Origin: Methanobacteriota archaeon
Lineage (GTDB): Archaea; Thermoplasmatota; Poseidoniia; Poseidoniales; Poseidoniaceae
DNA: 32,320 bases
NCBI GenBank assembly: GCA_002689345.1
Contig: NZFU01000035.1
Coordinates: 1-32,320, forward strand
Reading direction: 5' to 3'
A program made the position numbers and the translations under genes. The notes beneath the pieces are model-generated. The model did no database searches, was not told the origin of the DNA, and saw only the letters and a list, made by a program, of their open reading frames with translations. Positions 20,571-32,320 of the stretch are shown piece by piece. Within the stretch, counting starts at the first letter, position 1, and every line of letters starts with the position of its first letter.

Positions 20571-20996
20571 ATGGCAGCCGGACGTATGTCGCGAAGGTGT
20601 CGCAAGTTCATGCGACAAATTCACAAGGCTACGTCTAGATATGGCTTACAGGAGATAGCATCGAAGATCCAAAGTGATTTAGATCGCCGCAATCTTTCTT
20701 ACGAGGAAGCATTGAATCTTGGCAACATCTTGCAAGACAGGGCAGACACACTTCCTGGAGATGAAATCGTCTATGCGGTTTCAGACCGCGATTCCTATCG
20801 TAGAACTTTAGAATTATATTTGCGAGATGGGGTCTTGACTCAGGCCGAACAATTGTTGCTTTGGGAAGAGAGAAGGCGATTAGGAATTGGCGACTTGATT
20901 CACAACCAATTGATGGAGCAATTGTTAGCCGCTTGGACTAGACAAGGTAAGTCGGTTCAGATCCATGCATTCAAGGGGGGGATGGCAGATGTCTAA
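20571..20996 (+). CDS. Small charged helical protein upstream of giant surface protein, 141 aa
   Basis: Not recognised. The first 30 residues are strongly basic (Arg, Lys, His). The rest is predicted helical with many Leu, Arg, Asp and Glu, for example ELYLRDGVLTQAEQLLLWEE. There is no signal peptide, membrane segment or Cys motif, so it should be cytoplasmic. The ATG at 20571 has a TATA box at leaderless distance. The stop codon overlaps the start of the 1662-residue surface protein by eight bases (ATGTCTAA), implying translational coupling and a shared process. An adaptor or regulator for the membrane protein is a guess from context only. Confidence 0.75.
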   Translation: MAAGRMSRRCRKFMRQIHKATSRYGLQEIASKIQSDLDRRNLSYEEALNLGNILQDRADTLPGDEIVYAVSDRDSYRRTLELYLRDGVLTQAEQLLLWEERRRLGIGDLIHNQLMEQLLAAWTRQGKSVQIHAFKGGMADV

Positions 20997-23900
20997 TCGT
21001 AAGGTAGCATTTTCTATTCTGATTGTTTTATTGTTACAGGTATCTGTACCAATGATTCCAGTAGATGCCACCAGTGGAAGAAGCACCCCCGATTTCACCG
21101 TTTCAGTAATGACTCTTTCATCCGGTGGTTCAATCGATGATGCAGGCCAATACAAACTTGCACCTGGAGACCACATTGTAAGAATGGTTGTTTCAAATAA
21201 TGGTTTAGCAGATGGAACTGCAACTTTGAATCTCATTCACAGAGCATCAGCATCATCTGGCGAGACCACTGTAACTTCGATTAATCTAGGAATTATAGGA
21301 GCGTCATCCTCTTCCAATACCATCCTAGTTAACTGGACTGCGAATTCTGGTGATGGCCAAACATTGTTTGCTAGAGTCGTTTCTAGCGAAGATTCCGATT
21401 TGTCCAATAACGAGAGAACATTGGATTTTGATGTGACTATGCTTCACCGAGGCTCGGTATTGGGAGACACAGTCCCCGGTCCTACTGGTGGATTTACCGA
21501 TGTTCGCTTGAATCATACGATTCATACATTCGATGCTACGGTTAGAAATGATGGAGTCATGGATGTTTCTGCGGTCTTCGAATTGAATTTCACCGACAAT
21601 AATAACGTCGCTAACCAGGTTTCATTTTGGTCTAACACGTTGATATTAGAGCCGGGTAGTTTGCTGTATCCTTCAGTAGGGGGCGGATTATCTGCATCTT
21701 TCGATGCGACATCGATGCTTGGCTCATGGACTCTTGCAGCAAAAGTACACTTCAATGGAACGATGTGGACAAATACAATTGTTAGAGCGGTTGAAACAGT
21801 TACCTTTTCTGATTACATTATCGATGTATCAACTCCCGGTGACAGAGCGATTGAGCCTGGAGCTACTACGACAATGACTTGGCTTATTTCGAATCTAGGA
21901 AGTACAGATGATTTGACAATCGAACTCGGATCCGATTTAGGATGGCATGACGATTCACAAGAAGGTACGGTAATCAATATCGCAAGTGGAGAGTCGACCA
22001 GTATAGTAGTTCCAGTAACAGTTCCTATTGATGCTGTAAAACCGACACTAGAAAATATCTATTTGAATTTGTCAAGTAATTCAATCACCCCTTACACTGC
22101 AAGAAGTGTGGCGCATGTGATGGTTGGCGACCAATACCAAGCAACAGTCATCGCGCCTTTAGGGCCGGTAACAGTAACTCCTGCCCAGACCACATCTCTA
22201 TTATTCACAATCGTAAATAGTGGAAATGTGCCTGCCGCATTCGACCTAGAGACGGGACTATCAGCAGCTGCAGACAATTGGATATTCACACTAAGTTCAA
22301 CCACAACAGATGTAATTCCAGTAGGTGAAAATGTTAGTGTTTCAGTTCAAGTGATTCCTGCTCCAATCTCTTCTCCATTAGATGTAGGTGAGAGAAACGC
22401 TGCAGGAGACAGCCTTTACTCTTGGCTTTCAGCAATTCCTACCGATGGAGGCATTCCTGCCATCAATTCCACACAAATGGTAGTTAGAGCGGTTATTGCT
22501 GTTGACCCTGGGCCAGAAACAGAACAAATTGTTCTCACAGAAGAAGAAGTTGTTCAGGCTAATGGTTCGGGAGGGATTGATCAAATTTTGTCTCTATCAG
22601 TAGAGGTTCGTCATAATTTAGGCGGGGCTGTTACAGGAGGTGTTGATGCTAACATTACAGTAACAACTCCTGTGTTCACGCCAATCAATACCGGAGGGAA
22701 TAATGAAGCAATCCGCTGGAATTCAACTGTAACCCCCTCTTCAGTATCAGGTCTTGAAGTGGGAGAAATATTCCAATCATGGCTTGCAATCGATGGGCCC
22801 GGAGATGAACTTCCTCTTGCAGGCGAATTGATTTTACCTGTAACAGCAACTCCAATTTTGACAGCAGGACAACAAGCTAACGGCGTCTTAGCAAGCAGTG
22901 TTACAAGAAACATCAGTATTCTAGTCCCTAGTGTTACAGATGGAGAAATAATCACTGAAGGCCCTCTAGATGCTGATGTTGGCAACCTAACTAATTTCAC
23001 AATTAAATTAGCAAATACAGGAAACGACCTCTCTTCTTATCGTCTTGTGATCGAAGATGATTTGCCCGACCTGTGGTCAGCGAGTTTGGAAACCTCAGAT
23101 GTTGATAACCCATCTATTGTTGCAAATCTTTCTCCTTCGATGGCAGACCATCCAATAACTGGAAACGCACACATCTCCAATGTTACACTGAAAGTGACAA
23201 CCGACCCTCAAGCACCAGCCGATACACTGCAGCCACTAACCATTAGAGTGGAAGATCGAGACACCGGGCAAGTCCTATCACTCAACACCCTTTTGATTAG
23301 AGTTGAAGAATCGATTAACTTTGAATTACAACCTACTAACCATACTATCGATTTATCTCCATATGAAACTCCATTGACAAGGGTTTACATCAATAATACT
23401 GGAAACGTCGCAACCACATTCTCAGTATGGCTCGATGATAGTATGGAGAACGATGTTGATTTCTCGTTAGAATCTTCAAATGAAATTGTAATCGCCCCCG
23501 GGTACACCGATTCGGTTAAGATTCGATTAACTCCAGATTTAGAGGCAAGCGCTGATGATTCTCACATGATTACCTTGTGGGTTTCTGCTATTGGAGGCAT
23601 GAACTTATCCGCTTCTATCGTTGCAAATATTACAGCAGACCATCATTTGACAATCGATGTACAAGATACCGTTTCAGTGACGCCTGGCGTGAATAAAACC
23701 ATCGATGTGACATTTTCCAATACAGGCAACCTTGAGGAATCGTTGAATGTTACAGCCGTGGTTGAAGGCGGATGGGGTACTTCTTGGGTTGAAAATCAAA
23801 TGGTTTTACCAATTAATGGAAGCCTTGATAATGATTTGACAATAGTGATTCCTGCATTAGGTGGAAATGATTCACTAGCCAATGGCGATACACACAATGT

Positions 23901-25977
23901 CACAATTTCACTGTACCATTCTAGTAATGGTGGATTCTTATCCTCCAGGACAATCACTCTAGTAGTGGCGCCACTATTCCTAGTGGAATTGAATAATTGG
24001 CCTACTGAGATGCTATATCACCGCTATTGGGAGCAAGAATGGAACGTGACAGTGACCAATGTTGGAAACAAGGATGTTATTGTAGATCTAGACTTTGAAG
24101 TTCTAAAACCAGGTCTAGAGATCAACTCTATTGCATGGGAAGTAGATACTGAAGCACCGAATTCGTTGGTACTACCAATCGGTATGCCCGTAAAATTGAG
24201 TTTCATAGTTGATGCAAAAGAATTCGAGCCAGATATTTATCTTGAAGCGCAATTGAGATTGACAATGACTCCAGAAGATTCTGAAATTTCTGGAACTTCA
24301 ATTGCTGAAACTGCTCTAAAGATGTCAAAATTATTCCCTTATCAAGATTACAAGTTGACTCCGAGTGCAGATAATTCAAATCTTTCAGAGAATATTTACT
24401 GGTCTCACTACGACCAGAGTGATGAACAATCTTCCTACTTGATTGAATTATGTGGTGCTGAAAGGCGTGTTAACTTGACCGAATTAGGACTTAGTGAGTC
24501 CGATTTCAAATGGAACTTCGGCCTAAATGTAGATGGGGAAACAGAAACCCTAGATCTTTCCAATGATTGTGACGGTGGAGTCCATTCTACAATCACCCTC
24601 CCACCTAGAGCCGCATGGGATACATCTCAGAATCCATTGAATATCATAATCGATACTCCCGATAAACCGAATATCTTGAGAAACGATGGATATGATTTGA
24701 CATTTAGGTTATACCACCCTGATCAAAATTTAGGATACACAGTTTACACTGAAGCAACTTTTGAGTTCTACTTCAACACCATTGCAATTCCAACAATTGT
24801 AGATTTATCATTCTCAGGCGATGATCTTCAAGAAGGAGTCGAATCTCAAGTTACAGCCACTCTTAGAAACGATGGAACATCCATTGCTTTACAGGTTAGT
24901 GCTGAATTGGTTTGTGATGGAATAGCTGTAGAAGATTCATTGTATCAATTACCAATTTTAGGCCATGAATATTCTGAAACAATATCTTGGGATGTTGAAA
25001 CCGACCATTTAGATTGGTGGGCCCAATCTAGTGATGTATCATGTACGGTTATCCTTGATGCGAAATCATGGGATGGCAAGCAAATGCCTACTCAGACTTA
25101 CAATTTAGATGGCGAGGTTGAATCTTGGTCTCCTGGAATTGGAATCTCTTTCATCGCACTACTAGCATTATTGGGCGCTTCTATTGGATTGTTAAGGCTG
25201 GTTGGCCAGAATGATAAATTCCGATTAGCAGCCATCTATTCCGGTGTCTTGGCACTAGGATTTGCATTCCACTTGATGAGTCTAGTTTCAAGCGAATGGG
25301 GAGGCCCAGCAATACTGTTGATAGCCGCCCTATGGGTCTGGATTATGACTTGGAAGTCTACGGTTGAATTCCAGTTGATTCATGAGGATTATCAACGTGC
25401 ACGAAAAGGAATCAGTACGCTATACAGTGACCATTTCGATGTATTATCGGATGCTAAGCGCCAACTTTCGATTATTCTAGCAATGCCGATATTAGGTATG
25501 ATTGGAGTAATTCTAGGCCTTCCGCCTCAAATGAGTCCTGATTCATCTAACATAATCACTCTTATCGGTTATCTAATCGTAGTTATTGTTGGAGTAATAT
25601 TCCTTGTATGGAATGCAAACAGAATGTATGGTTCACTGTATGGAAGGCTTACTGAAGTTGAAGTTCAAGCCAGCCGCATCGAGAGAGATTTGGGTGACCC
25701 TGCTCGGTTATTGACCGAACTTGCCAGCGATGGATTGGATATCACTTCGATAATTTCTCGGCCTAAACCAAGCACTACAGTAACAGGTTCCGCATCAACA
25801 TCAGATGTCATAGATTGGGACGAAGATCTAGACGTTCTAACCGAAGAAGAGTCGGCAACTGATTCCGATGAGGTCGCATCTGAAGATGAAAATCAAGATG
25901 AAGATACTGGCATCGACATCGAAGATTTGTTCGAGGATGAAGAAGAAGCAAGCGAGGAGGTGAGCGATGATGACTGA
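20989..25977 (+). CDS. Giant Ig-domain membrane protein upstream of archaellum genes, 1662 aa
   Basis: Predicted envelope protein. A signal peptide spans about residues 1-26. The ectodomain (about 30-1375) is a chain of roughly nine Ig-like modules of CARDB or NEW3 type, each with a core such as VVSNNGLADG, TVRNDGVMD, LISNLGSTDD, TIVNSGNVPA, KLANTGNDLS, INNTGNVATT, TFSNTGNLEE, TVTNVGNKDV and TLRNDGTSIA. Five membrane helices lie at about 1378-1405, 1413-1435, 1437-1457, 1491-1511 and 1521-1541, putting the C-terminus inside. The tail has a helical part and an Asp/Glu-rich end (about 1600-1662). Asn-X-Ser/Thr sequons are abundant. ATG 20989 is preferred over 20965 because it begins the signal peptide and follows a G-rich ribosome site. 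It overlaps both neighbours. An envelope scaffold linked to the archaellum is inferred from context. Confidence 0.85.
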   Translation: MSNRKVAFSILIVLLLQVSVPMIPVDATSGRSTPDFTVSVMTLSSGGSIDDAGQYKLAPGDHIVRMVVSNNGLADGTATLNLIHRASASSGETTVTSINLGIIGASSSSNTILVNWTANSGDGQTLFARVVSSEDSDLSNNERTLDFDVTMLHRGSVLGDTVPGPTGGFTDVRLNHTIHTFDATVRNDGVMDVSAVFELNFTDNNNVANQVSFWSNTLILEPGSLLYPSVGGGLSASFDATSMLGSWTLAAKVHFNGTMWTNTIVRAVETVTFSDYIIDVSTPGDRAIEPGATTTMTWLISNLGSTDDLTIELGSDLGWHDDSQEGTVINIASGESTSIVVPVTVPIDAVKPTLENIYLNLSSNSITPYTARSVAHVMVGDQYQATVIAPLGPVTVTPAQTTSLLFTIVNSGNVPAAFDLETGLSAAADNWIFTLSSTTTDVIPVGENVSVSVQVIPAPISSPLDVGERNAAGDSLYSWLSAIPTDGGIPAINSTQMVVRAVIAVDPGPETEQIVLTEEEVVQANGSGGIDQILSLSVEVRHNLGGAVTGGVDANITVTTPVFTPINTGGNNEAIRWNSTVTPSSVSGLEVGEIFQSWLAIDGPGDELPLAGELILPVTATPILTAGQQANGVLASSVTRNISILVPSVTDGEIITEGPLDADVGNLTNFTIKLANTGNDLSSYRLVIEDDLPDLWSASLETSDVDNPSIVANLSPSMADHPITGNAHISNVTLKVTTDPQAPADTLQPLTIRVEDRDTGQVLSLNTLLIRVEESINFELQPTNHTIDLSPYETPLTRVYINNTGNVATTFSVWLDDSMENDVDFSLESSNEIVIAPGYTDSVKIRLTPDLEASADDSHMITLWVSAIGGMNLSASIVANITADHHLTIDVQDTVSVTPGVNKTIDVTFSNTGNLEESLNVTAVVEGGWGTSWVENQMVLPINGSLDNDLTIVIPALGGNDSLANGDTHNVTISLYHSSNGGFLSSRTITLVVAPLFLVELNNWPTEMLYHRYWEQEWNVTVTNVGNKDVIVDLDFEVLKPGLEINSIAWEVDTEAPNSLVLPIGMPVKLSFIVDAKEFEPDIYLEAQLRLTMTPEDSEISGTSIAETALKMSKLFPYQDYKLTPSADNSNLSENIYWSHYDQSDEQSSYLIELCGAERRVNLTELGLSESDFKWNFGLNVDGETETLDLSNDCDGGVHSTITLPPRAAWDTSQNPLNIIIDTPDKPNILRNDGYDLTFRLYHPDQNLGYTVYTEATFEFYFNTIAIPTIVDLSFSGDDLQEGVESQVTATLRNDGTSIALQVSAELVCDGIAVEDSLYQLPILGHEYSETISWDVETDHLDWWAQSSDVSCTVILDAKSWDGKQMPTQTYNLDGEVESWSPGIGISFIALLALLGASIGLLRLVGQNDKFRLAAIYSGVLALGFAFHLMSLVSSEWGGPAILLIAALWVWIMTWKSTVEFQLIHEDYQRARKGISTLYSDHFDVLSDAKRQLSIILAMPILGMIGVILGLPPQMSPDSSNIITLIGYLIVVIVGVIFLVWNANRMYGSLYGRLTEVEVQASRIERDLGDPARLLTELASDGLDITSIISRPKPSTTVTGSASTSDVIDWDEDLDVLTEEESATDSDEVASEDENQDEDTGIDIEDLFEDEEEASEEVSDDD

Positions 25978-28260: not shown

Positions 28261-29082
28261 ATGGCTTGGCCATTCGGTAGCAGTGATAAGGCGGGAGACG
28301 CTCAAAGCGATCTCTCTGAGGAGCGCTTGCGCGTCATGGCAAATGTTGCCATAGAGCAAGTGCCAATGCCTGAAGAAGGCGAACTCTCAGAGGAAGATGC
28401 TTGGACGATTGCTCCTGGACCTACTAGAGCTCGGCTCAATAATGCAGGAGCCCTGCCAGCCGCAGCAGCAGCCGCTGCTCCAGCGCAGGTGCAAGCGAAT
28501 GTCGATACATCAGGTATTGAGCGACTAATTTCTAGTCGCTTAGACATGGTTGAAGACGTTCTACGCATGGTTGAAGGACGACTTGAAGACGGTATGACTA
28601 CCGTTGTTAGTGCGGATGATGCAGCAACAGAAACTGGTGAAGTCGAACTTAGCGAAGGCGATACAATCGTCACCGCTTCGGGAGAAGTAATCTCTGGCTC
28701 TGCATCTCAACGCCTAATGTCTGAAGATTCAGCCCCTCTATTGGAGTTGTATGAAGCTCAAGCTTTGGCATCTAATCCTTTCCTAATCGCTCCGGCGCAT
28801 TTGGGAGATGGTGCAGATGGAACAGTCGGTGCGCCGACTGTAGCAGCACTTCTACTTGACAATCTGTCCGGTATGGCAGCAGTCTCCTTCACACAGAAGG
28901 CGATGAGTTCTGGCATGCTTACAGCAGATGAAGGAAAGTATGTATTGGCAATTGTCCAAATGGCCGCTCCTGGTGATACAGAGAGCGCTCTAGAGGACCA
29001 TTTGCCACACAGAGAATTGCTAACATTCTCGGCTCTTATCTCCAACTGGAGAAGAGCACGAGCACTCAGAGGTGAAGAGTGA
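28261..29082 (+). CDS. ArlC/D/E-like archaellum cytoplasmic component, 273 aa
   Basis: Position right after the archaellins is where ArlC, ArlD and ArlE lie in euryarchaea; these form the cytoplasmic ring that links the motor to chemotaxis. The protein has no signal peptide or membrane helix. An acidic N-terminus is followed by an Ala/Pro-rich linker (about 64-78), a short helix (about 84-110) and a C-terminal helical domain (about 170-270). That domain's order fits the ArlD/E domain: a helix LLLDNLSGMAAVSFTQKAMS, an SGMLTADEGKYVLAI segment like the family's SEEVRDLLL region, and the end HRELLTFSALISNWR. AGGAGGT lies six bases before the ATG. Similarity is remote, so the assignment depends partly on gene order. 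ArlF follows with no gap. Confidence 0.65.
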   Translation: MAWPFGSSDKAGDAQSDLSEERLRVMANVAIEQVPMPEEGELSEEDAWTIAPGPTRARLNNAGALPAAAAAAAPAQVQANVDTSGIERLISSRLDMVEDVLRMVEGRLEDGMTTVVSADDAATETGEVELSEGDTIVTASGEVISGSASQRLMSEDSAPLLELYEAQALASNPFLIAPAHLGDGADGTVGAPTVAALLLDNLSGMAAVSFTQKAMSSGMLTADEGKYVLAIVQMAAPGDTESALEDHLPHRELLTFSALISNWRRARALRGEE

Positions 29083-29724
29083 ATGGGTAGCGTAGCAGTT
29101 GGAGCAATGGTTGTTGGAACATCCTTGCTTGTAGTATTTGCATTAGCAATGGCTACACTCGAAGCGCAGGTGGAAGATTCCATCGCACAAATCGAGGCAA
29201 CTGCTGAACCCATTACTCAATTCACCATTGAGAACGCGAATAACGTTGATGGAGCAGTGGTATCATTCACTATAAACAATGGCGGAAGCGGCTATTCAGC
29301 CGGCCAAGTCGAAGTGAATGGTAGTACAGGCTCCTTCCTCGCAAACCTACAGATCTCGAGTGGTATTGTAACAGGATTAGATGTCCTAAATTACGGTGCA
29401 TCGTATCTCTACACTCCCTCACTCTATTTCCTCGAGGTCGTAGGTTTTAACACGGGCAACAACCTAAATATTTCAGTCACTATTGGACATTTAATTTTCA
29501 CAAATATTACCAATGATGGAAGTACGGATTTAGATACCGACTTTTCATGGCTGTTTATTGATGGCGGTTCTCCAATTAATCTCTCATCTGGGATAGATGG
29601 TTATTTACCGAATACCATTTTCCCAGGTGAGACTTTTGAATTTATTTATGATAATGCAAATACTGCAGCAACAAGGCTTGCAGTTACAATCGATGGCCAA
29701 ACGAAGGCATCGAGAGTAATTTGA
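29083..29724 (+). CDS. arlF: ArlF, archaellum stator protein with unusual insertion, 213 aa
   Basis: ArlF and ArlG form the periplasmic stator that holds the motor to the S-layer. The start MGSVAVGAMVVGTSLLVVFA gives the N-terminal membrane helix (about 5-25), followed by an extended helix (EAQVEDSIAQIEATAEP) as in the family. The C-terminal beta-sandwich has the usual ITNDGSTDLDTDFSWLFIDG core at about 141-161. Between them, residues about 60-134 are extra: GGSGYSAGQVEV, a variable stretch, then GIVTGLDVLNYGASYLYTPS, resembling GxGYxxxP repeats of adhesins and phage tail proteins. Normal ArlF is about 140 residues, so this is about 70 longer. Sequons are present (NGS, NIS, NIT, NLS). The ATG follows the preceding stop directly. 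F rather than G is judged from order and N-terminus. Confidence 0.78.
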   Translation: MGSVAVGAMVVGTSLLVVFALAMATLEAQVEDSIAQIEATAEPITQFTIENANNVDGAVVSFTINNGGSGYSAGQVEVNGSTGSFLANLQISSGIVTGLDVLNYGASYLYTPSLYFLEVVGFNTGNNLNISVTIGHLIFTNITNDGSTDLDTDFSWLFIDGGSPINLSSGIDGYLPNTIFPGETFEFIYDNANTAATRLAVTIDGQTKASRVI

Positions 29725-29733
29725 GGTGTTAAT

Positions 29734-30228
29734 ATGGCAGATGGCGGCGCTAGTACAATGATTCTGCTTGTAACTTCGTTATTGATTAGTGGGGCCGCAT
29801 CTGTGGTTTTACTAGAATCATGGGGCGAGGTTGCAGAAGCTAGTGGTACTAATGTGAAAGGAAATGTTGCTGATGCAGAAACAGATGTTTCATTCAGTGG
29901 CGATAGAGGTGATGTATTATTGGATACATCAGGCTCCAATCAAGAAATCACATTATATTTCCAAAACTCTGGAATTAGGCCCTTAGATAAATCCTCATTC
30001 ACTATATTCGTTGACGGAGTTTCAGCTACAACGGTTGGAGCTGCAACTCTTTATCCTGCCAACGGAGTTTGGGCTACAGATTATGTTCTGGAAGTTACAG
30101 TAACAGATTCTTCATTCAATTATAATGACAATGATTTGGCATCTGTAACAATCATTGTCCAATCAACCGTTAGCGACGGAGTTAAGGGTACAGATTCAGA
30201 AACAGCTGAGGTGAGACTAAGTGTTTGA
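29734..30228 (+). CDS. arlG: ArlG, archaellum stator protein, 164 aa
   Basis: Partner of ArlF in the stator. The N-terminal membrane helix (about 7-26, STMILLVTSLLISGAASVVL) is followed by a Val/Ala/Glu stretch and a beta-sandwich with the family core ITLYFQNSGIRPLDKSSFTI and FVDG. Length is normal for the family. GAGGTG of the upstream stop-codon region (TTTGAGGTG) serves as ribosome site, repeating the arrangement between the two archaellins. There are no Asn-X-Ser/Thr sequons, unlike ArlF. The 3' end overlaps the ArlH start by eight bases. Assignment rests on sequence pattern plus the F-G-H-I order. Confidence 0.83.
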   Translation: MADGGASTMILLVTSLLISGAASVVLLESWGEVAEASGTNVKGNVADAETDVSFSGDRGDVLLDTSGSNQEITLYFQNSGIRPLDKSSFTIFVDGVSATTVGAATLYPANGVWATDYVLEVTVTDSSFNYNDNDLASVTIIVQSTVSDGVKGTDSETAEVRLSV

Positions 30229-30937
30229 TGAAGCTCCAAAACCGGTTGAAGACGGTTATGAATTTACCCTTGAACAAGACAGTCTTTCCAACGCGATGGG
30301 TGCACGTTTGCCTAACCGAAGTTTATGGATGATTCAAGGAGAGGTAGGTAGCGGTAAATCATTGGTTAGTCAAAGGTTGGTTTACGGACTCTTAGAGAAC
30401 GGCTCAAAAGTTTTAGTCGTAACCACTGAATTAACCACAAGAGGTTGGATAGAACAAATGGAATCAATCGGTTACCCCGTCACCGAGCATATTGCAAAAG
30501 GCAGGCTCCTAGTATTCTCTAGATTTGGTGTAATAGCCGAAGCAAAAGAAGGAGTGGACATCTTTGATGTTCTTGAATCCGAGGCGGTTGAGAAATCCGA
30601 TGTAGTAGTAGTAGATTCATCATCTGCTCTAATGCCAACAGGACTTGAAAACGCACAACAACTCGGTGTATTACAAAGACTGCGACGAGTTTGCAGTGAA
30701 TCACGCTCACTATTGTTAACCATAGATCCAACTGAAATGGATGACAAATTATTGCACAAACTACGTTCATCTTGCGAAGTATTACTCGACATGGCAGCAG
30801 GTTTCGTTGGTGGAGAAATCAAGAGAACAATCATTGTAACGAGATTTTTACGCGCAGCAGGACCTGTTCAAGCAAGTGTTGGTTGGCGTGTTGAGCCTTA
30901 CATGGGCTTCATCGTAGACATTACGGCGGTGAGCTGA
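30221..30937 (+). CDS. arlH: ArlH, archaellum motor regulator (KaiC-like ATPase), 238 aa
   Basis: RecA/KaiC-like ATP-binding protein that sits in the cytoplasmic ring and regulates the ArlI motor ATPase. Walker A is GEVGSGKS at residues 40-47. The strand DVVVVDSS near 127-134 is Walker B with Asp132, followed by Ser rather than Glu as usual in ArlH, so hydrolysis may be weak. TTELTTRGWIEQMES matches the switch segment after the second strand. It starts at a GTG (30221) with GAGGTGAG six bases upstream, overlapping ArlG by eight bases. Its stop shares one base with the ArlI start (TGATG). Size and order are canonical. Confidence 0.94.
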   Translation: MFDEAPKPVEDGYEFTLEQDSLSNAMGARLPNRSLWMIQGEVGSGKSLVSQRLVYGLLENGSKVLVVTTELTTRGWIEQMESIGYPVTEHIAKGRLLVFSRFGVIAEAKEGVDIFDVLESEAVEKSDVVVVDSSSALMPTGLENAQQLGVLQRLRRVCSESRSLLLTIDPTEMDDKLLHKLRSSCEVLLDMAAGFVGGEIKRTIIVTRFLRAAGPVQASVGWRVEPYMGFIVDITAVS

Positions 30938-32320
30938 TGGAAGATGAAGAACTCAAATTCCAACGTGGCGATTTGGATTCGGTTATGGCCGCTCATCCAC
31001 ACGTAGCTCTCTGGGTCAAAGATTTCGAAGCAAAGTATGGAAGTAGGCCTTATTATTACGGCCCATTAGATAGAGACGCTCGAAAAATCCAGCCCATGAA
31101 TCTGATTTACATTACCAAAGAGCCAATTTTCGTTCACATGTATCGCCCTGTTGATGCGGATGGCTCAGAAGGCCAGACACTTTGGTTTGGATTAGAGCCT
31201 CAACTGACTGACGAAGAAGAAAACATCAGACGCACTCTTATCGAAGTACTTCTCCAAGAAGCACCTAGTGCTCCCTCTTTTACAACGGATGATGAATTTG
31301 AAAATATTCTATCTGGTATGATTGATAGGTACACAATTTTAGATTCTGAGGCAAGAAATGCAACACGACGTCAGGGGAGAATGTGGGAAGTTCTTGGAAT
31401 GGATGATAAGAGAATCATCGTTACTAAAGAGCAAAGAGACCGTTTGCGGTACATCATTATTCGAGATTTAATCCGTAACGGTCCATTAGAACCTCTTCTT
31501 TCTGATGAGATGCTGGAAGATATACACTCTGTTGGATTAAAGCATGTTCATATGGACCACAAAGTGTTTGGAATGGTTACTTCAAACATCAGATTCCGTG
31601 AAAGGGACTTGTTAGCAAGATATCTGCGTGCTATGTCTGAGCGTATTGGCCGGCCAGTTTCAGATAACAAACCAATTATCGATGGGGCCTTACTTGATGG
31701 TTCTCGTATTAACATCATATTTTCCGACGACGTATCCATGCTTGGACCGTCATTCACTATCAGAAAGTTCGCTGAGGAAACCATCTCGGTTACTCAACTA
31801 ATCAAATGGGGTACCATGAGTGCACAAGTCGCAGCATACATTTGGATTTGTTTGGAATATGGAATGTCGGTACTAGTGAGTGGTGAAACCGCTTCAGGAA
31901 AAACTACCACTCTAAACGCAATTCTACCATTCATCGATCACAATGTCAAAATATACTCGGCGGAAGATACCCCTGAAGTGAAAGTTCGCCACAAGATTTG
32001 GCAAAGGCTGGTTACTCGTGATTCTAAGAATGAAGAGAGCAGAGTTGAGATGTTCGATTTATTGAAAGCAGCATTACGTTCTCGTCCAAGATACATTATC
32101 ATTGGAGAAATACGTGGGGTTGAGGGAGCAACAGCCTTCCAGGCTATGCAGACTGGCCACCCAGTTATTGCTACTTTCCACGCATCATCTATCGTAAAGA
32201 TGATTCAGAGATTTACTGGTGACCCAATCAATGTTCCAATTCGTTTCTTCGATAACTTAAACTTTGCAATTTTCCAAGAAGTGGTCGAAGCACCAGGTGG
32301 TGGAATTGCTCGTCGTATTA
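30937..32320 (+). CDS. arlI: ArlI, archaellum motor ATPase (partial, cut by window end)
   Basis: Hexameric secretion-superfamily ATPase that powers filament assembly and rotation. The frame is open from ATG 30937 to the window edge (461 codons), with no stop. Visible motifs in order: Walker A GETASGKT (316-323), Asp box AEDTPE (342-347), Walker B YIIIGEIRG (386-394) and His box TGHPVIATFH (406-415). An N-terminal domain of about 270 residues precedes the ATPase core, as in the family. The start overlaps the ArlH stop (TGATG), a one-base overlap typical of coupled translation. Only the last part of the C-terminal domain should be missing; ArlJ is expected next, outside the window. Confidence 0.96.
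   Translation, partial: MEDEELKFQRGDLDSVMAAHPHVALWVKDFEAKYGSRPYYYGPLDRDARKIQPMNLIYITKEPIFVHMYRPVDADGSEGQTLWFGLEPQLTDEEENIRRTLIEVLLQEAPSAPSFTTDDEFENILSGMIDRYTILDSEARNATRRQGRMWEVLGMDDKRIIVTKEQRDRLRYIIIRDLIRNGPLEPLLSDEMLEDIHSVGLKHVHMDHKVFGMVTSNIRFRERDLLARYLRAMSERIGRPVSDNKPIIDGALLDGSRINIIFSDDVSMLGPSFTIRKFAEETISVTQLIKWGTMSAQVAAYIWICLEYGMSVLVSGETASGKTTTLNAILPFIDHNVKIYSAEDTPEVKVRHKIWQRLVTRDSKNEESRVEMFDLLKAALRSRPRYIIIGEIRGVEGATAFQAMQTGHPVIATFHASSIVKMIQRFTGDPINVPIRFFDNLNFAIFQEVVEAPGGGIARRI

Follow-up and report, generated by a model that had tools for sequence, protein, structure and literature searches.

How an archaellum is held in place where no S-layer is known is raised as an open question in sections of recent papers (PMC12448462, PMC13319060). 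The picture proposed for model archaea is one of ArlG filaments that extend to the S-layer with ArlF as their cap; when this layer is lost, the archaellum is still assembled but no longer rotates (passages of PMC8978795 and PMC13319060); part of the latter paper raises the anchoring question also for the bacterial envelope of Chloroflexota. The locus studied here lies in a stretch of 32,320 nucleotides (the window, i.e. all of the DNA that was analysed) from a Marine Group II archaeon (Poseidoniales/Poseidoniaceae), whose genome is a bin of 74 contigs that is 77% complete. The question of ArlF anchoring is shared with Thermoplasmatales without an S-layer (Oxyplasma, Thermoplasma), which we take to belong to the same phylum as the source organism. 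In the section of a 2025 study that compares AF2 models of ArlF from S-layer-less Thermoplasmatales, no distinct binding motif is described (PMC12448462), whereas ArlF of the window has an added domain. The archaellum operon of Marine Group II is reported in parts of PMC6461757 and PMC6336850, the main texts of which do not contain the term 'FlaF'. With a limited set of search wordings, no literature report was found of an ArlF insertion in the phylum, of inserted domains in archaellins like the ArlF case, or of the cell envelope or S-layer of Marine Group II. What appears to be new is thus a known stator protein that carries a known phage domain type: a module familiar from phage structural proteins has become part of a cellular motor component, apparently on two occasions and at one site. 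The clear added domain, together with compact ArlF proteins of the same order as natural controls, makes the anchoring testable. The operon genes concerned are:

29083-29724, plus strand: arlF, archaellum stator protein with insert, 213 amino acids (operon position; sandwich fold match to Sulfolobus FlaG/FlaF).
29734-30228, plus strand: arlG, operon partner, 164 amino acids, without insert (NCBIfam ArlG, E 7.4e-16, 58.5 bits, below the cut-off of 110).
30221-30937, plus strand: arlH, KaiC-like (Pfam ATPase/KaiC, E 6.8e-11).
30937-32319, plus strand: arlI, cut by the window end (Pfam T2SSE, E 1.7e-37).

The product of 29083-29724 is ArlF by position and fold, as an earlier note on this DNA had proposed. 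The arlG gene begins 9 bases after the end of arlF and is followed by arlH and arlI. Structure comparison of the AF2 model revealed an archaellin-like sandwich after the N-terminal helix, and the top three rows for the sandwich part of the full model were Sulfolobus FlaG (5tuh, Z 10.5) and FlaF (4zbh and 4p94, Z 9.9 and 9.7). Since the Z scores for FlaF and FlaG are tied and the neighbouring gene scores as ArlG, the choice of the name ArlF over ArlG is based on gene order. With the NCBIfam ArlF profile (NF052590, curated cut-off 110 bits), the window ArlF (P0001) scored 17 bits and compact relatives 28 bits. P0001 is matched only from residue 140 (residues 140-202 on profile positions 69-132, E 0.0052); the compact relative L058 covers nearly the whole profile (residues 1-123 on positions 1-133, E 2e-6). 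None of the 292 phylum genomes sampled reached the cut-off; it excludes the entire phylum sample, so the name depends on the fold together with gene order. ArlF/FlaF of Sulfolobus acidocaldarius (PDB 4p94, 4zbh), a stator protein that binds the S-layer, shares with the window protein the N-terminal helix, the sandwich (Z 9.7-9.9) and the place in the arl operon, but its A-B hairpin is without an insert.

The borders of the insert were set by alignment with compact ArlF proteins of the same order (133 and 131 amino acids), which divides the gene as follows:

29086-29205, plus strand: N-terminal helix, residues 2-41 (AF2 model).
29221-29250, plus strand: sandwich strand A, residues 47-56, ITQFTIENAN (AF2 model; alignment with compact ArlF).
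29251-29493, plus strand: whole inserted module, 81 amino acids, predicted six-stranded beta-barrel of the gp18 domain I type (AF2 models, structure searches).
29251-29361, plus strand: insert unit 1, residues 57-93, GxGY intact, NNGGSGYSAG (alignment, profile comparison).
29362-29493, plus strand: insert unit 2, residues 94-137, degenerate, NYGASYLYTPS (alignment, profile comparison).
29494-29721, plus strand: remaining ArlF sandwich from strand B onward, residues 138-213 (alignment; AF2; NCBIfam ArlF profile match).

An extra segment had been placed at residues of about 60-134 in the earlier note, and comparison with the compact proteins confirmed it at about 57-137. It does split the ArlF domain, but between strand A and strand B rather than between helix and sandwich as had been supposed: the insert occupies the A-B hairpin, with strand A (ITQFTIENAN) before it and strand B (HLIFTNITN) after it. 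In the AF2 model strand A is predicted to continue unbroken into the insert (E47-66), and the last strand of the insert unbroken into strand B (E129-144). The two GxGY copies that had been read from the sequence hold for unit 1, which is a true GxGY (GGSGY), whereas unit 2 is degenerate in the window genome (GASYLYTP); it lacks the GxGY spacing and is decayed in the genus of the window (g1). Two clear GxGY units are present in relatives, e.g. L216. Aligned as profiles, the two units gave an E value of 7.5e-5 with an HH probability of only 34%, which is suggestive of kinship. DNA repeats were looked for inside the insert and none were found, and thus there is no sign of a recent duplication. 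An assembly chimera was ruled out by the presence of the insert in 24 of 24 g1 genomes read.

The fold of the insert was predicted within the full protein and alone. The alignments comprised the window protein plus 54 of 74 loci (A3; X-bearing, unreadable and near-copy rows were excluded) and 45 rows (A5). The full ArlF model (55 sequences) had a mean pLDDT of 84.3 and a pTM of 0.65; the model of the insert alone (45 sequences; pLDDT 76.2, pTM 0.61) is of moderate confidence. An extra ordered domain was predicted when the protein was compared with Sulfolobus ArlF, rather than the single plain sandwich that would have spoken against an insertion. The insert alone is predicted to form six strands and a short helix, and this barrel superposes on residues 96-190 of the T4 tail sheath protein gp18 (VIA-align: Z 8.1, rmsd 3.1, 81 of 83 residues aligned). 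The runners-up were another phage sheath (Z 6.0) and, as the first unrelated fold, pyruvate kinase (Z 3.0). In the full model, insert residues 60-136 match gp18 99-188 (Z 8.7, rmsd 2.5, 76 aligned). A Foldseek search of the PDB with the insert alone gave T4 tail/gp18 entries at all of ranks 1-9, with a weak best E value of 0.14 and probabilities of 0.51-0.98. Domain I of gp18 (PDB 3fo8, PF22639) is described in a passage of PMC3004832 as a six-stranded barrel with a helix (residues 98-188) that is itself inserted into domain II. The ArlF module would share with it the barrel, the short helix and the insertion in another beta domain, but it sits in an archaeal motor stator and the sequence identity is 14-15%. 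The Pfam family of gp18 domain I (PF22639) matched 1 of 26 inserts (E 0.0047), the window insert not being that one. Overall, the models indicate that the A-B hairpin of ArlF has been opened to hold a two-unit GxGY module that is predicted to fold as a gp18-domain-I-like barrel.

Kinship of the insert with phage proteins was assessed with profiles. When 26 inserts were scanned, 20 PHROG families were matched at E <= 0.01, mostly phage structural proteins; the best matches were to a baseplate wedge (6.6e-7), a structural protein (3.4e-6) and a virion structural protein (1.5e-5), and a head closure family was matched by 8 of the 26. The insert profile finds the solved tailspike Dpo31/Dpo36 (E 3.7e-6), covering unit 1 and the start of unit 2. 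With a phage-only profile the repeated GxGY units were found to be homologous to phage units: the window insert scored 29.7 bits, versus at most 8.5 in the 496 shuffles listed, and the ArlF sandwich, ArlG, one archaellin and the giant Ig-like protein encoded upstream (see below) gave at most 0.6 bits or no match. A profile built without genus g1 gave 38.8 bits versus at most 10.2 in 1000 shuffles, and one of phage and giant-protein modules 40.0 bits versus at most 13.7 in 1000 shuffles. As the shuffle controls lie far below the window insert, the match to the GxGY module is not due to chance. The proposal of a GxGY module of phage structural type inside ArlF is thus borne out by fold and by profile scores over shuffles; a profile search of the insert alone, suggested at the time as a check, did find GxGY similarity. 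Phage baseplate wedge, head closure and tailspike repeats (PHROGs 438, 460, 697, 19630; Dpo31/Dpo36, PDB 28lx/8ck1) share the two-unit GxGY module with ArlF by profile homology, but the phage proteins have a long tandem series of units where the window ArlF has one pair. Other searches returned little: Pfam gave no family for ArlF or the insert (matches to SymE and NAGLU_N at E 0.03-0.15 were regarded as noise), the best E value in a single-sequence search of solved structures was only 0.051, and a tblastn search of 50,697 phage records with two of the inserts yielded no match, perhaps because the inserts are short or masked as low complexity. The phage relatives were recovered by profile methods where tblastn gave none.

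The distribution of the insert was determined in the order. The arlH gene was found in 199 of 318 genomes and 16 of 22 genera. A survey of ArlF length, another check suggested beforehand, covered the 95 genomes in which ArlF was read and showed both forms to be present (67 inserted, 28 compact). In family f1 the insert is found in all 52 genomes read whole (ArlF 209-408 amino acids); further f1 genomes matched the full profile, and a g2 ArlF cut at its 5' end (L043), which is outside the count, shows the insert. In the sister family f2, genus g14 has the insert in 15 of 15 genomes read (230-242 amino acids), and genera g15 (13 genomes), g17 (2), g19 (7) and g21 (6) are compact in 28 of 28 (131-147 amino acids). 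ArlF was read in 15 of 20 g14 and 13 of 14 g15 genomes, the rest lying mostly at contig ends. Outside the order, the best 30 ArlF-profile matches of a phylum search span 131-145 codons without insert; the profile favours uninserted proteins, and rare inserts there could escape it.

Several ArlF loci deviate in length or copy number. Complete ArlF proteins of g5 and g7 (f1) measure 336-408 amino acids, and their enlarged insert seems to hold a further nested segment (L050, L051, L065-L068). Five ArlF proteins were scanned against PHROGs: L050 and L051 of g7 match phrog_460, and two from g5 and one from g9 gave no match at E <= 0.01. In L118, arlF and its upstream neighbour (homologue of 28261-29082) appear to be fused in frame, and an ArlF open frame of 594 amino acids is present in G231:C110. 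In the bin of genome G300, arlH and arlF are each present twice, on separate contigs (L204, L214), which means either that the bin is mixed or that there is a second operon. One g9 bin contains, besides its own ArlF (L049), an ArlF resembling those of g1 (L009, G048:C29), which is probably a contamination.

To place the gain of the module, an ArlH tree was built from 60 sequences out of 113, with no genus represented by more than six genomes and insert state assigned by genus; its g9 row (L009) seems to be g1 contamination in the g9 bin. Family f2 resolves as ((g15,g17),(g19,(g14,g21))), with support of 100/97 for g14 plus g21 and of 96/79 for g19 beside them. The minimum number of changes in insert state is two. 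Because g14 is nested among compact genera, two gains are the simplest history: with a compact outgroup they require 2 changes, as against 4 for one ancestral gain in the order followed by three losses (g15/g17, g19 and g21). The single gain would account for the use of the same hairpin in f1 and g14, but it is rather unlikely, given also that the best 30 ArlF-profile matches from outside the order are all without insert and that the g14 modules are no nearer to the f1 modules (11-28 bits) than to phage or giant-protein modules (12-29 bits). These scores fit an independent capture, for which modules of 80 residues offer weak evidence. Overall, the module was probably acquired twice, from a pool carried by phages and secreted giant proteins.

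The earlier note had suggested that the insert could pair with a giant protein encoded upstream of the operon:

20965-25977, plus strand: giant Ig-like membrane protein, 1670 amino acids, candidate anchor partner (presence with the archaellum across genomes).

Its C-terminal membrane helices were judged by eye. Of 29 archaellated genomes, 26 gave a match to the protein (f1, 12 of 13; g14, 3 of 5; compact ArlF, 11 of 11), as did none of 19 genomes from six genera without detected arlH; the same query did match distant archaellated f2 genomes. As its presence follows the archaellum, the protein appears linked to it and is a fair candidate for the structure gripped by the stator, and might itself serve as an anchor of the archaellum. 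A specific tie between the insert and this neighbour was rejected, as the protein occurs in all 11 genomes with compact ArlF, and the insert is therefore not needed for such a pairing. For the suggested pairing, the joint occurrence of the giant protein and the archaellum is indirect support only. Four f2 genera have compact ArlF in the same operon and alongside this giant Ig protein, so that the module is not required for an archaellum. Pairing with a second module-bearing protein was not supported in the source genome, where a search at E <= 0.1 of the 77% complete bin located the module only in ArlF.

What the module does was considered from its place in ArlF. Strand A starts beside the membrane helix and leads away from it. 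This order of strands should place the A-B hairpin, together with the module, at the membrane-distal tip of ArlF, which is the end thought to meet the S-layer in other archaea. We consider the chance about even that the module gives the stator an additional contact with the envelope. It would offer a rigid contact surface and help ArlF/ArlG to hold the motor against torque in the Poseidoniales envelope; possible partners include the giant Ig protein linked to the archaellum, some other glycoprotein of the coat and a second ArlF. More tentatively, and with the balance somewhat against it, the Poseidoniales may, on two independent occasions, have placed a phage-tail-sheath-type barrel in one and the same ArlF hairpin as an anchor that grips a non-S-layer coat or the giant Ig protein. 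If true, this would be a convergent remodelling of the footing of a rotary motor with virus-type parts.

The unbroken run of strands A and B into the barrel amounts to a rigid extension, which would suit a stiffener or spacer. In that case the module would lengthen or stabilise ArlF-ArlF or ArlF-ArlG packing without any envelope contact, as might suit a thicker or softer pseudoperiplasm. The variable length that such a role predicts is seen in the longer inserts of g5 and g7, but these are explained equally well by more binding surface, and we regard a stiffener or spacer of this kind as a lesser though real possibility. An adhesin is improbable. For the module to bind particles, algae or other cells it would have to be exposed outside the cell, with the archaellum serving for attachment; in other archaea ArlF is a protein of the motor base, a poor site for an adhesin, and the one window archaellin tested has no such module. 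On the other hand, similar modules are found in proteins of the phage tail, baseplate and tailspike, as well as in secreted giant proteins of the sister family, and passages of Rinke et al. (PMC6461757) propose that archaella of Marine Group II serve adhesion more than motility, with adhesion taken as their main role because chemotaxis genes were not found.

Constraint on the insert bears on whether it has a function at all. In 21 of the 25 loci L001-L025 (N-bearing sequences were left out; all are g1 ArlF genes, one being g1-like from the g9 bin), the median dN/dS was 0.106 for residues 1-56, 0.142 for the insert and 0.143 for residues 138-213; these figures are rough, as many pairs are near saturation and 42-92 of the 210 pairs per region were unusable. 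The mean identity in g1 was 0.83, 0.75 and 0.64 for the same regions. Judged from these codon comparisons, the insert is plainly under purifying selection, like the sandwich. A neutral passenger, tolerated in a permissive surface hairpin and with unit 2 decayed in the genus of the window, is therefore highly improbable in view of a dN/dS equal to that of the sandwich, an identity in g1 above that of the sandwich and the presence of the insert throughout the f1 genomes read. The added envelope contact remains our preferred reading.

Modules of this kind were also noticed elsewhere. Two giant proteins of f2 (L236 and L239, open frames of 2444 and 2389 amino acids) contain two such modules each, and L239 additionally carries a MAM-like domain. 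The loci L237 (G017:C57) and L238 (G145:C12) are likely tailed-phage contigs that were binned into archaeal genomes. For L238 this assignment is based on its similar units only; the 1529-residue protein of L237 matches phrog_701 over its length with 2479 bits.
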